Origin: Aquipuribacter sp. SD81
GTDB lineage: Bacteria; Actinomycetota; Actinomycetes; Actinomycetales; JBBAYJ01
Length of the DNA stretch: 64,000 nt
NCBI RefSeq assembly: GCF_037153975.1
Contig: NZ_JBBAYJ010000009.1
Location: 1-64,000, forward strand
Reading direction: 5' to 3'
Shown here: piece after piece, positions 43,870 to 47,751 of the stretch
How positions within the stretch are numbered: position 1 is the stretch's first letter
Layout of the letters: the number at the start of each line of letters is the position of its first letter
Notes under the pieces: model-generated
Database searches by the model: none
Seen by the model: only the letters and a program-made list of their open reading frames with translations
What the model was told of the DNA's origin: nothing
Made by a program: the position numbers and the translations under genes

Positions 43870-45027
43870 TCAGCCCGTCGGGGCGAGGACGCCCGCGAGC
43901 TCCTCGGACAGGTCGAGGTGCGCGACCGGGTCGGCGACGCCCGCCGCCTCCGCCTCGAGCTCGCGGACGAGGGGGATCACTTCCCGGCCGAAGGCCTCGA
44001 CCTCCTCGCGCACGTGGAGGAAGCCGAGCAGGAGCAGGTCGACCCCCACGAGCTTGTACGCCAGCGCCCGGCGCGCGACCTGCTCGGGCGTCCCGACGAG
44101 GCCGGTGCGGAAGCCGTCGTTGTACTGCACGAGGTCGCGGAACGTGCTGTCGGACCACATGCCCGTGCCGTCCGCGCTGGAGCGCCCGGCCTGCCGGACG
44201 GCCTCGCGGAAGCCCTCGACCTTCTCGACGTCGGCGTGCGCGACGACGTCCTCCACCACCTGCCGGGCGGCGGCCGCGCTGTCGCGGACGACGGCGAAGC
44301 CGTTGAGCCCGAAGCGCACGCGCCGCCCGGCGGCCGCGGCGTAGCCGCCGACCTGCGCGACCTGCTCCGCGACGCCCTCGGGCGTGCTGCCGTTCATGAA
44401 GTACCAGTCGCTCACCCGGCCGGCCATGTGCCGGGCGTCGGTGGAGTTGCCGCCCTGGAAGATCTCGGGCAGCACGTCCGGCTGGGGGCGGAACGTGAGG
44501 CCGCGCGTGCGGAAGAAGTCCCCGCGGTAGGTGAAGTCGTCGGTGGTCCACGCGCCGCGCAGCACGTCGATGAACTCCTCCGACTGCCGGTAGCGCTCAC
44601 CGTGCTCCAGCCACGTAGCGCCCAGCGACACGGCCTCGTCCTTGAACCAGCCGGAGACGACGTTGAGCGCGAGGCGGCCGCCGGTGAGGGACTGCGCGGT
44701 CGCCGCCCACTTCGCGAGCACCGTCGGCTGCCAGAAGTAGGGGTGGACCGCGGCGATGACCTTGAGGCGCTCGGTGGCGAGCAGCAGCGCGAGGGAGAAC
44801 GACGTCGACTCGTGCTGCTCGTCGGCGCCGTAGCTCGCCGCGTAGCGCACCTGGGTGAGCGCGTAGTCGAACCCGGCGGCCTCGGCGGCCCGGGCCGTGT
44901 CGACGTTGTACCGCGGGGTGTGGTCGGTGCGCTGGGGCAGCGTCGAGACGACGAGGCCGCCGGAGACGTTGGGCACCCAGTACGCGAAGCGCAGCGGAGC
45001 GGGGTGGGTGGGCTGGGGTGTGCTCAT
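43870..45027 (-). CDS. sfnG: Dimethylsulfone monooxygenase (FMNH2-dependent, luciferase-like)
   Basis: 385 residues. SfnG oxidises dimethylsulfone to methanesulfinate and formaldehyde with reduced flavin, freeing sulfur for growth. The N-terminal RFAYWVPNVSGGLVVSTLPQ is characteristic of SfnG. Luciferase-like core motifs follow (AASYGADEQHESTSF, NVVSGWFKDEA, EIFQGGNSTDARHMAG). The partner flavin reductase lies upstream with a 4-base overlap. The riboswitch and leader ahead of the pair fit sulfur control. Confidence 0.92.
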   Translation of the reverse strand: MSTPQPTHPAPLRFAYWVPNVSGGLVVSTLPQRTDHTPRYNVDTARAAEAAGFDYALTQVRYAASYGADEQHESTSFSLALLLATERLKVIAAVHPYFWQPTVLAKWAATAQSLTGGRLALNVVSGWFKDEAVSLGATWLEHGERYRQSEEFIDVLRGAWTTDDFTYRGDFFRTRGLTFRPQPDVLPEIFQGGNSTDARHMAGRVSDWYFMNGSTPEGVAEQVAQVGGYAAAAGRRVRFGLNGFAVVRDSAAAARQVVEDVVAHADVEKVEGFREAVRQAGRSSADGTGMWSDSTFRDLVQYNDGFRTGLVGTPEQVARRALAYKLVGVDLLLLGFLHVREEVEAFGREVIPLVRELEAEAAGVADPVAHLDLSEELAGVLAPTG

Positions 45028-45551
45028 GCGACGGCTCCTGAGAGGACGGCGGGGCGGGTGTACGTGCGGTCGTGGTGCACGAGCGGCTCCGGGGCCCGGT
45101 CCGCGCCGTCGACGAGGCCGTCGACGCCGTGGACCTCGCCGAGGACGAGCAGCGAGTCACCGGCCTCGACGAGCCGCAGGACGGCGCCCGCGACGCGGGT
45201 GACGACCCCGTCGAGGTGCGGCAGTCCGTCCTCCGCCCAGCGCCAGGCGGTGCCGGGTCCGAAGCGGAGCGCGGCGTCGGCGGCGAAGCGCCGGGCGAGG
45301 TCCTCCTGGTCGGCGGCGAGCAGGTGGACGGCGAAGCGGCCGGACTGCACGAGCGCGTGCAGGCTCGACGACGTCCGGGCGACGTTGAACGACAGCAGGG
45401 GCGGGGCCAGCGAGACGCTGGCGACGGACACGGCGGTGAACCCGACGGGCAGGCCCGCGTGCGCGGTGGTGACCGCCCAGACGCTCGAGGCGTCGGAGCG
45501 GAAGGCGCGGCGCAGGTCCACGGCGGGTCCACCCCAGGTGGGGGTGGTCAC
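45024..45551 (-). CDS. Flavin reductase for the sulfone monooxygenase
   Basis: 175 residues, flavin-reductase-like split-barrel domain (FRSDASSVWAVTTAHAGLPV, SLAPPLLSFNVARTSSS, GRFAVHLLAADQEDLARRFA). It would supply FMNH2 to SfnG. The GTG start follows TGAGGAGAACCAC. It lies 72 bases after the stop of the leader peptide. It is SfnF-like by context. Confidence 0.9.
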   Translation of the reverse strand: MTTPTWGGPAVDLRRAFRSDASSVWAVTTAHAGLPVGFTAVSVASVSLAPPLLSFNVARTSSSLHALVQSGRFAVHLLAADQEDLARRFAADAALRFGPGTAWRWAEDGLPHLDGVVTRVAGAVLRLVEAGDSLLVLGEVHGVDGLVDGADRAPEPLVHHDRTYTRPAVLSGAVA

Positions 45552-45623
45552 GTGGTTCTCCTCAGGTGAGGGCGGTCGGCCCGACGGCTCGACCGGGGTG
45601 GGTGGGGGCGGTCGCGACGGCGC

Positions 45624-45713
45624 TCAGGCGCGCGAGGGCCGACAGCGGCCCGAGGCCGTCCGGAGCAGGTCGACGACGCGGCGGCGCACGAGGAGAGGAC
45701 GGGGACGTGTCAC
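45624..45713 (-). CDS. Leader peptide of the sfn operon (29 codons)
   Basis: The GTG at 45713 is preceded by a strong ribosome binding site (GGAGGT, 7 bases away). The 29-residue product is very basic; its core RRRVVDLLRTASGRC resembles short actinobacterial leader peptides found before sulfur genes, which share a pattern like RRxVDLxRxxSxxC. The single Cys near the end would allow cysteine-sensing attenuation. The ribosome binding site overlaps the closing helix of the riboswitch just upstream. Confidence 0.6.
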   Translation of the reverse strand: MTRPRPLLVRRRVVDLLRTASGRCRPSRA

Positions 45714-45724
45714 GAGGTGGACCT

Positions 45725-45812
45725 CCATCGGCCTGGCGGGAGCACCCTCACCCGAGGTTCCGGGGGGTTGCTGCGGCGTCGACGAGCCAGGTCTCTCGGC
45801 CGCTCTGGATGG
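45725..45812 (-). promoter_or_regulatory. SAM-I type (S-box) riboswitch
   Basis: Read on the minus strand, the segment begins CCATCCAGAGCGGCCGAGAG, goes on with ACCTGGCTCG, GACGCCGCAGCAACC and GGTGCTCCCGCCAG, and ends GATGG. These are the conserved S-box blocks (AGAGxGG, GAGRGA, GCAACC, GGTGCT). P1 is formed by CCATC (45812-45808) and GATGG (45729-45725). A separate 8-base hairpin (45812-45831) precedes it. SAM binding would stabilise P1 and cover the ribosome binding site of the leader peptide at 45721-45726. Confidence 0.8.
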
Positions 45813-45831
45813 GCGCCACCACTGTGGCGCC

Positions 45832-45939: not shown

Positions 45940-47751
45940 GTGCGCCGCTCCCTCCTGCTCCTCGTCGCGTTCACGATCGCGGCGCTGCTGGGGCGCCTCA
46001 CCGCGACCGACGGGCTCGGCGGGCTGGCCCTCGTGTGGCCGGCGGCCGGCGTCGCGGTCCTGTGGGCGGCCGCGGTGCCGGACGTGCGCACCGGCGTGCG
46101 CGACGGCGTGCTCATGGGCGCGGCGACGTTCGCGGTCCACGACGCGACGGGCGTGCCGCTCGCCGACACCGGCTGGTTCGTCGCCGCCAACCTCGTGCAC
46201 GCCGCGGTCGGTGCGACGCTGCTGGCGGCGTTCGGCGCCCGCCGGCGGCGCCTGGACTCCGCGGCGGTCGGCGGGGCGATCGTGGCGGCGTCGTTCGCGG
46301 CCGCGGCGGCCGGCGCGGTCGTGGTGGCCGGGGCGCCGGACTACGTCGGGACGACGACCGGCGCCCTGCTCGTCCTCGTCCGCAACGCCGTCGGCACCGT
46401 CCTCGTGCTCGCGGTCGCACGGACCTGGCCCCCCTCGCGCGACGAGCTGGTGCCCGCGCGCCGCCGGGAGGCGCTGCTGCTGCTCCTCGCCACCCTCGGC
46501 GGCTACGGCCTCGCCTTCGTCGTCGGCGACGGCCTCAACATCGCCTACTCCGTCGTGCCCCTCACGCTGTGGGCCGCGCTGCGGCTCGGGCGCTTCCTCA
46601 CCAGCGCCCACCTCGTCCTCACCGGGGTGCTCACGGTCTGGCTGACCGTCGCCGGCTACGGCCCCTTCGCCGCGTCCGGCACCGACCCCGCCACCCGGGT
46701 CGTGCTCGCGCAGGGCTTCCTCGCGGTGCTCGCGTGCGTGGCCGTCAGCATCGCCGTGAGCCGCCACGAGCGCGACGACCTGCTCGGCGCCGTCCGGGCG
46801 AGCGAGGCGCGCGTGCGGCGCAGCCTCGACACCGCGCTCGCGGGCCACCTGTCGGTGCGGCTGCGTCCCGACGGGCGCACCGCGGTCATCGGCAGCGCCA
46901 ACCCCGCGACGGCCGTGCTGCTGCGGCGGCCGGTCGCCGACCTCCTCGGCGCGGACTGGCTGACGCTGCTCGAGCCGTCGCACGCCGCGGAGGTGACGGC
47001 CGGGCTGGTGTCGGTCGCCGAGGGCCGCGACCCGTCCTGGCAGGGCACCGCCGAGGTCGTGCTGCCGGACGGGGCACCGCGGTGGGTGCAGCTGCTCGTG
47101 GGCCCCGACCTGGTCGGCGAGGCGGGCCACGACGTGCACGGCGCGCGCCTGACGGTGCAGATGCTCGACGCCACCGACCGCGTCGACGTCGAGCGGCGGC
47201 TCACGCTGCTCGCCCTCCACGACGACCTGACGGGCCTGCCGAACCGGACCCTGCTGCTGGACCGGCTCGACCAGCAGCTCGCCGCGTCGGGGCGCGACGG
47301 CACGGCCGTCGGCCTCCTGTTCCTCGACCTCGACCGCTTCAAGGCGGTCAACGACACCCACGGGCACGCGACCGGCGACGAGCTGCTCGTGCTCGTCGCG
47401 CAGCGGCTCCTGGCCTCGGTGCGTCCGCTCGACACCGTGGCGCGGCTCGGTGGCGACGAGTTCGTCGTGTGCTGCCCGGGCCTGGCGTCCGTCGAGGCCG
47501 GTCTGGCCGTGGCCGACCGGCTGCTGGAGGTCATGGCGGAGCCGCTGGTCGTGGGCGGGGAGGCCCTCGACGTCGGGGTCAGCGGCGGCCTCACGCTCTC
47601 CGGCCCGGGTGAGGACGCGCGCGGCCTGCTCGAGCGCGCCGACGCCGCCATGTACCGCGCGAAGCGGTCGGGGCGGGGCCGCATCACGACCGAGGCCGTG
47701 CCGTCGTCCGTGCCGTCGTCCGCGCCGCTGGCGGTCGCCCGCAGCGCGTGA
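45940..47751 (+). CDS. MASE1-PAS-GGDEF diguanylate cyclase
   Basis: 603 residues. The first about 270 residues form eight or so transmembrane segments of MASE1 type (LVWPAAGVAVLWAAAV). A PAS-like domain lies at about 285-415. The GGDEF domain follows (about 430-595) with DDLTGLPNRTLLLDRL, LFLDLDRFKAVNDTHGH, and an intact RLGGDEFVV active site near residue 503. It should make cyclic di-GMP, possibly to control the nearby polysaccharide genes; this link is inference. No EAL domain. Its stop lies 4 bases from that of menF, convergent. Confidence 0.92.
   Translation: MRRSLLLLVAFTIAALLGRLTATDGLGGLALVWPAAGVAVLWAAAVPDVRTGVRDGVLMGAATFAVHDATGVPLADTGWFVAANLVHAAVGATLLAAFGARRRRLDSAAVGGAIVAASFAAAAAGAVVVAGAPDYVGTTTGALLVLVRNAVGTVLVLAVARTWPPSRDELVPARRREALLLLLATLGGYGLAFVVGDGLNIAYSVVPLTLWAALRLGRFLTSAHLVLTGVLTVWLTVAGYGPFAASGTDPATRVVLAQGFLAVLACVAVSIAVSRHERDDLLGAVRASEARVRRSLDTALAGHLSVRLRPDGRTAVIGSANPATAVLLRRPVADLLGADWLTLLEPSHAAEVTAGLVSVAEGRDPSWQGTAEVVLPDGAPRWVQLLVGPDLVGEAGHDVHGARLTVQMLDATDRVDVERRLTLLALHDDLTGLPNRTLLLDRLDQQLAASGRDGTAVGLLFLDLDRFKAVNDTHGHATGDELLVLVAQRLLASVRPLDTVARLGGDEFVVCCPGLASVEAGLAVADRLLEVMAEPLVVGGEALDVGVSGGLTLSGPGEDARGLLERADAAMYRAKRSGRGRITTEAVPSSVPSSAPLAVARSA

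Follow-up and report, generated by a model that had tools for sequence, protein, structure and literature searches.

Mycobacterial cysteine-responsive leaders were reportedly the subject of Canestrari 2020, and by the title of that work they are leaderless and polycysteine. Candidate cysteine leaders are presented in parts of PMC1262725, and passages of PMC9094748 and PMC13236596 cite the cysteine-responsive leaders of mycobacteria. With the leader studied here they share a short ORF, cysteine near its end and a position before sulfur genes; by that title, the mycobacterial ones are leaderless and polycysteine, whereas ours holds a single UGU codon, carries a Shine-Dalgarno (SD) sequence and has a riboswitch in front. 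At the level of protein families, NF042934 ("putative leader peptide"), an actinobacterial family spread over the class, has the same motif, R..VDL.R.....C, with a fixed position of the cysteine. It differs in that the copy discussed here falls below its cut-off, and its one-line family description names neither a riboswitch nor a codon.

For a riboswitch that controls a uORF, one studied bacterial example was found, the B12 riboswitch of ppe2 in M. tuberculosis. The relevant passages of PMC11260477 propose that this translational off-riboswitch masks the SD of the short uORF uPPE2, and reporters showed that the downstream gene depends on uPPE2 translation. Our locus is alike in that, judged by its anatomy, a putative translational off-riboswitch overlaps the SD of a uORF. 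As portrayed in those passages, the ppe2 relay differs in its ligand, which is B12 and not SAM, and in its coupling, which works mainly by stop/start overlap and re-initiation, and nothing there presents uPPE2 as sensing an amino acid; a closer match to it than the leader of the sfnG operon is given by the metF uORFs of our order (see below). Sequestration of an SD by a SAM riboswitch is likewise reported in parts of PMC9373788 for the SAM-II element of Sinorhizobium metA, where the SD serves translation at a distance; that system, as presented there, has another aptamer and an in-frame second AUG, and no leader-peptide sensor.

The riboswitch families RF00162 and RF00634 are represented here by a SAM-I aptamer above the gathering score and, in five loci, by SAM-IV elements ahead of leaders of this kind. 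They differ from our case in that the start that would be controlled here is that of the leader ORF and not of an enzyme gene, and no terminator was seen. All parts are of known kinds, and their combination, together with the UGU codon rule, was not found in searches of an open-access library; as covered by titles, the beginnings of abstracts and some passages, its papers described no SAM riboswitch on a cysteine leader, subscription papers being mostly outside its scope. If our reading is true, dozens of operons of one order carry a metabolite switch that gates a ribosome-based sensor of the precursor. Since a SAM gate on a cysteine sensor would recur that often, its logic would be directly testable.

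SAM switch, leader and operon of the window

The window is the whole stretch of 64,000 nucleotides that was analyzed. Its features at this locus are the following:

45722 to 45815, minus strand: SAM (S-box, SAM-I) riboswitch aptamer (RF00162, 52.2 bits, E 4e-9)
45808 to 45812, minus strand: 5' strand of P1, CCATC, from sequence and pairing
45725 to 45729, minus strand: 3' strand of P1, GATGG, whose final GG also opens the SD, from the sequence
45722 to 45726, minus strand: SD of the leader ORF, GGAGG, from the sequence; an SD-like string stands before 16/16 leaders behind SAM or SAM-IV switches
45714 to 45725, minus strand: small inverted repeat GAGG-TCCA-CCTC over the SD and spacer, from the sequence
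45624 to 45713, minus strand: leader ORF of 29 codons plus stop, GTG start at 45713, TGA stop, from the sequence and an NF042934 match below cut-off, with a motif common to 35 other SAM-linked leaders
45690 to 45696, minus strand: TCTCCTC in the leader, 7-nt complement of the reductase SD region GAGGAGA (45563-45557), possibly by chance
45642 to 45644, minus strand: conserved Cys codon UGU (residue 24, nine after Asp15), UGU in 31/33 order-level and 30/30 class-level leaders
45568 to 45623, minus strand: C-rich, G-poor spacer, candidate Rho loading region, C-G skew 0.32
45558 to 45563, minus strand: SD of the flavin reductase gene, GAGGAG, from the sequence
45024 to 45551, minus strand: flavin reductase gene (PF01613 Flavin_Reduct, E 1.3e-29)
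43870 to 45027, minus strand: sfnG, dimethylsulfone monooxygenase (TIGR04021, 564 bits, above cut-off)

The covariance-model search placed RF00162 at 45815-45722 on the minus strand over model positions 1-108 of 108; its 52.2 bits exceed the gathering score of 44.4, and E is 4e-9 when the entire window is compared with 4227 families. No other Rfam match at the gathering threshold was listed for the window, in a display that omits overlaps within a clan and thus SAM-I/IV. The S-box that the original prediction placed on the minus strand was thereby borne out over the full length of the model, and the Infernal comparison with the SAM model that it called for came out above the gathering score. 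The P1 helix comprises 5 bp, formed by CCATC (45812-45808) and GATGG (45729-45725), and the overlap with GGAGG (45726-45722) was predicted to the exact base: two SD bases of the leader are at the same time P1 bases, an anatomy that fits an occlusion of the ppe2 type. SAM very probably gates the translation of the leader at this locus, as far as the sequence tells. A hairpin from GAGG-TCCA-CCTC had also been anticipated; its letters are present at 45725-45714, but the ortholog L004 lacks it in this form, and the spacer there can pair with GATGG in place of the GAGG/CCTC hairpin.

The leader ORF encodes MTRPRPLLVRRRVVDLLRTASGRCRPSRA. Compared with NF042934 (cis_reg_atten), it reached 18.8 bits (E 9e-4), under the cut-off of 27 bits, and is therefore filed as an apparent relative, not a member, of this family, which it resembles. 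It carries R..VDL.R.....C, a Cys nine residues after the Asp, UGU as the codon of this Cys and a short ORF, features that were derived here and are not the definition of NF042934 itself.

The reductase gene starts at 45551, 72 nt past the leader stop, and overlaps sfnG by 4 nt; with the 72-nt gap, the uORF stop does not overlap the gene start as it does in the ppe2 type. With regard to the predicted target sfnFG, TIGR04021 names sfnG, while PF01613 places the reductase in the Flavin_Reduct family and gives no assignment as sfnF. At the SD of the reductase, GAGG (45563-45560) can also pair with CCTC at 45571-45568. The divergent neighbor of the locus (window 45940-47751, plus strand) encodes a MASE1-GGDEF protein, probably a membrane diguanylate cyclase.

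The source genome holds three SAM switches, each opening onto a short ORF with UGU at most seven codons from the stop, and one additional leader of the NF042934 type without a switch (L139). Within the genus, a reductase was found behind a SAM-linked leader in only two of three genomes (G000, G002).

SAM switches and first reading frames in the order

For comparison, 138 SAM switches of the order were examined, composed of 38 loci from searches and 100 more taken down the E-value ranking; this set favors high scores, and outside it lie a number of listed matches, partly near-duplicates from sister genomes, and all weaker unlisted ones, so that the following fractions are not order-wide rates. 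P1 was exactly 5 bp long in 120/138 switches, and two SD bases lay within it in 108/138. By these two counts, direct SD occlusion by P1 is apparently the common arrangement for SAM switches in the order, and with 108 of the 138 sharing it, the P1/SD overlap was rejected as a novelty of the window locus.

Taking the first start within 25 nt that has an SD, a short ORF (at most 60 aa) followed 67 switches and a longer ORF 61, with none found in the remaining 10. More than half of the short first ORFs (36 of 67, or 36/138 switches) were leaders with VDL.R or a close variant, and of 1856 short ORFs read from the other strand of these regions, 1 had the motif. These 36 leaders came from 20 genomes, with 23 of them belonging to one family. 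The earlier claim that the switch acts on the leader and not directly on the reductase is supported by this comparative anatomy, the same wiring recurring in six families of the order. For a downstream gene, the start was set at the first SD-preceded one that opens at least 90 aa, a rule that may misplace some of these starts.

Of the genes behind leaders, eight were classified, several of them fragments. Four belong to sulfur-enzyme families, namely one of the O-acetylhomoserine sulfhydrylase type (L003, whose leader is without the VDL motif), one with a nitrite/sulfite reductase domain (L067) and two of the sulfurtransferase/rhodanese kind (L093, L138); L001 contributes an ABC ATPase closest to those of sulfonate transport, and three are generic (two solute-binding proteins and one FAD-NAD(P) protein). 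NCBIfam cut-offs were passed by none of the four genes compared. Two other arrangements were seen behind SAM switches: L032 (1501-1590) has a Cys-rich leader, MPPTYRPCEVEFHGVAAASCCPAPTLTCRCCL, followed by an apparent ABC transporter ATPase, and L048, L060 and L061 have an 8-residue uORF, VS(A/S)CMxxR, followed by an apparent lipoprotein gene.

At metF, short first ORFs of 11-22 codons followed the SD of the SAM switch, and in all 20 such loci, which belong to genomes other than the source, the uORF stop overlapped the metF start by exactly 4 nt (L020, L021, L024, L037, L040, L042, L044, L050, L054, L063, L074, L076, L083, L085, L096, L110, L113, L115, L117 and L130). The sequences of these uORFs were alike among sister genomes and widely different between families; six other metF loci start directly. 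The metF uORFs look like a translational relay resembling that of M. tuberculosis ppe2. Taken with the leaders, this suggests that the SAM switches of the order may act through uORFs in two ways, by bare coupling and through a sensing leader.

Conservation of the leader and its UGU codon

Outside the motif, the leaders were conserved in frame only, with a mean BLOSUM62 score of 1.96 versus 0.67 and 0.69. Among the 36 SAM-linked leaders, an Arg stands four residues before the Asp in 35 and a Cys nine residues after it in 33. The exceptions to the latter are L017 and L018, which keep the HVDL motif and have no Cys at all, and L007, where the Cys is one residue off. Three leaders without the HVDL motif (L003, L005, L008) nevertheless have UGU as the third codon before the stop.

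The Cys at Asp+9 was encoded by UGU in 31/33 order-level leaders (L081 and L108 use UGC), whereas the remaining Cys codons in these leaders were UGC in 28/31 cases (Fisher P 2e-12 for this within-leader contrast). Cys codons were UGC in 85/88 cases in genes behind short first ORFs; in genes directly under a SAM switch UGU was less rare (13/78, with UGC in 65/78). At the level of the class, the peptide model found a match in 89/118 genomes. The 30 loci examined (L179-L208) are its best-scoring matches and include some close relatives, L194-L196 being near-identical; all 30 had UGU at Asp+9, and 49/63 of their other Cys codons were UGC (P 5e-14). Pooled over both sets, UGU occupies the conserved Cys in 61/63 leaders from genomes that mostly use UGC, which raises the question why a cysteine sensor keeps the little-used codon where UGC is the usual spelling.

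The bases flanking the conserved UGU vary among leaders, which points to the codon itself as what is conserved. Short stems near UGU exceeded those at random places, the best geometry occurring in 12/36 loci (at least 3 pairs) versus 2.0, and with these stems the U may be conserved for a reason at the RNA level; a conserved hairpin was not accepted as this reason, as no single geometry was common to the 36 loci. The last Cys lies at most three codons from the stop in 22/34 leaders, so that stalled and terminating ribosomes would cover nearly identical RNA.

From this coding pattern, the leader is likely to sense the supply of cysteine. It could instead be an arrest peptide: RxHVDLxR, while UGU occupies the decoding site, would halt the ribosome in answer to a ligand, be it cysteine or the modification state of tRNA-Cys, and not to a shortage of cysteinyl-tRNA. 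The nearly invariant Arg at -4, the exact spacing of nine from Asp to Cys and the restriction of UGU to this codon, amid varying flanking bases and not at Cys codons generally, would suit such a peptide; we consider it somewhat unlikely, as a model of amino-acid supply explains the Cys codon more simply.

Spacers, direction of control and the two proposed inputs

Spacers were compared in 32 loci (gaps of 30-210 nt), four of the 36 leaders being left out for want of a gene (L023, L127) or for a gap above 210 nt (L081, L122). In all 32, the spacer between leader and gene was more C-skewed than the gene itself. The mean C-G skew was 0.30 in the last 70 nt of leader spacers versus 0.05 in 75 control spacers taken from a rough gene caller, and a skew of at least 0.2 was reached by 81% versus 13% of them. 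An intrinsic terminator was sought in the 32 gaps, where TTTT was absent and TTT present in four; with TTTT lacking throughout, it was rejected as the effector. The gap from leader stop to gene was at least 41 nt wherever a gene was found.

Pairing of the leader with the downstream SD was another candidate. A 7-nt complement of the reductase SD is present in the leaders of the window locus (L002) and of L004, at different places, and L015 has no such complement of 4 nt or more. Over the 32 loci there was no enrichment, since runs of at least 6 occurred in 8/32 own pairs versus 8.1 expected from other loci, and the mean run was 4.16 for own pairs versus 4.12 for other loci. This pairing was not accepted as a general effector, own pairs being equal to those of other loci.

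C-rich, G-poor spacers without a terminator suit Rho, and composition is not proof of its action. Rho was suggested for mycobacterial cysteine leaders with a pyrimidine-rich spacer in passages of PMC1262725, which call their own prediction rather weak. Our confidence was lowered because parts of PMC13236596 cite the cysteine leaders of M. smegmatis as translation attenuation, and Rho is put forward only tentatively as the effector.

The direction of control was approached through loci in which the same enzymes stand directly under a SAM switch, namely L052 and L119 with a flavin reductase and L057 with SfnG, all identified by eye from the N-terminus. L052 departs from the usual overlap, its P1 containing no SD base. 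From this direct arrangement, high SAM should mean off in the version with a leader too, and we infer that the untranslated leader must then be the off state.

Two inputs, and not the simple relay of the first reading, are probable because the leader is of the cysteine-sensor type with a single, codon-conserved UGU. When SAM is plentiful in vivo, the aptamer would close P1 and take the first two SD bases, leaving the leader untranslated, and at low SAM ribosomes would enter it. Given enough cysteine, they would pass the single UGU, finish a few codons later and leave; given too little, they would stall on this codon. A leader that is untranslated or has been vacated would switch the operon off, either via Rho on the C-rich spacer or by a masked reductase start, and a ribosome parked near the end of the leader would keep it on. 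The flavin reductase and SfnG, which serve sulfur release from dimethylsulfone, would be made only under a joint shortage of SAM and cysteine. Whichever effector applies, a sulfur gate with SAM and cysteine as its two inputs is, on balance, the reading we favor.

If SAM controlled only whether the leader is translated, translation itself could block Rho or open the reductase start, with neither stalling nor a cysteine input. Such a relay would agree with the anatomy of SD gating and with the C-rich spacers, the 4-nt stop/start overlap of 20/20 metF uORFs looks like a pure form of it, and the 2/36 leaders without Cys would not disturb it. We judge it unlikely at the sfnG operon, as conservation of the peptide and of one Cys codon throughout the class sample is more than a mere relay would need, and as gaps of at least 41 nt are too long for stop/start coupling.

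In 15 genomes chosen mostly for having SAM-linked leaders, the peptide model gave 37 matches, four of them lacking a locus; of the 33 with known surroundings, 14 lay just behind a SAM and four just behind a SAM-IV switch, and these 18/33 are not an unbiased rate. Source-genome matches of the model (L142-L151, E 0.3 to 8.7) were left out. In the class sample, one leader of 30 stood behind a switch (L183, SAM-IV), from which it follows that the pairing is concentrated in certain families. SAM-IV immediately preceded leaders in five loci altogether (L156, L163, L166, L177, L183).

Among 59 leaders found by the peptide model, an SD-like string was present in 16/16 with a switch versus 6/43 without (P 7e-10), with every such string ahead of an in-frame start within 40 codons counted and L173 left out as a chance match in a 994-aa open frame. 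The SD lay in or directly after the GATGG of P1 in 11/11 SAM-I-linked leaders; the SAM-IV-linked ones (n=5) also have an SD, and the geometry was measured for SAM-I only. By sequence, the stand-alone form of the leader seems to start without an SD, and the switch-linked form is one with its SD in or beside the riboswitch. That the SAM switch governs the reductase otherwise, by RNA decay or termination, with the leader an independent cysteine attenuator adjoining by chance, would fit the 29/30 class-level loci without a SAM or SAM-IV match and is very unlikely in view of the 11/11 placement at P1 and the scarcity of SD-like strings in stand-alone leaders (6/43).

For the two-input gate, a wider account would be that a class-wide UGU cysteine leader runs sulfur genes and that SAM-I and SAM-IV were separately installed before it in several families, SD-less starts being replaced by an SD in or beside the riboswitch; this would amount to an AND gate for SAM and cysteine, or for the decoding state of tRNA-Cys at UGU. 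We regard the chances of this account as evenly balanced. Two loci have a double set of switches: L183 carries two SAM-IV elements on opposite strands, and in L172 a SAM and a SAM-IV element stand back to back.
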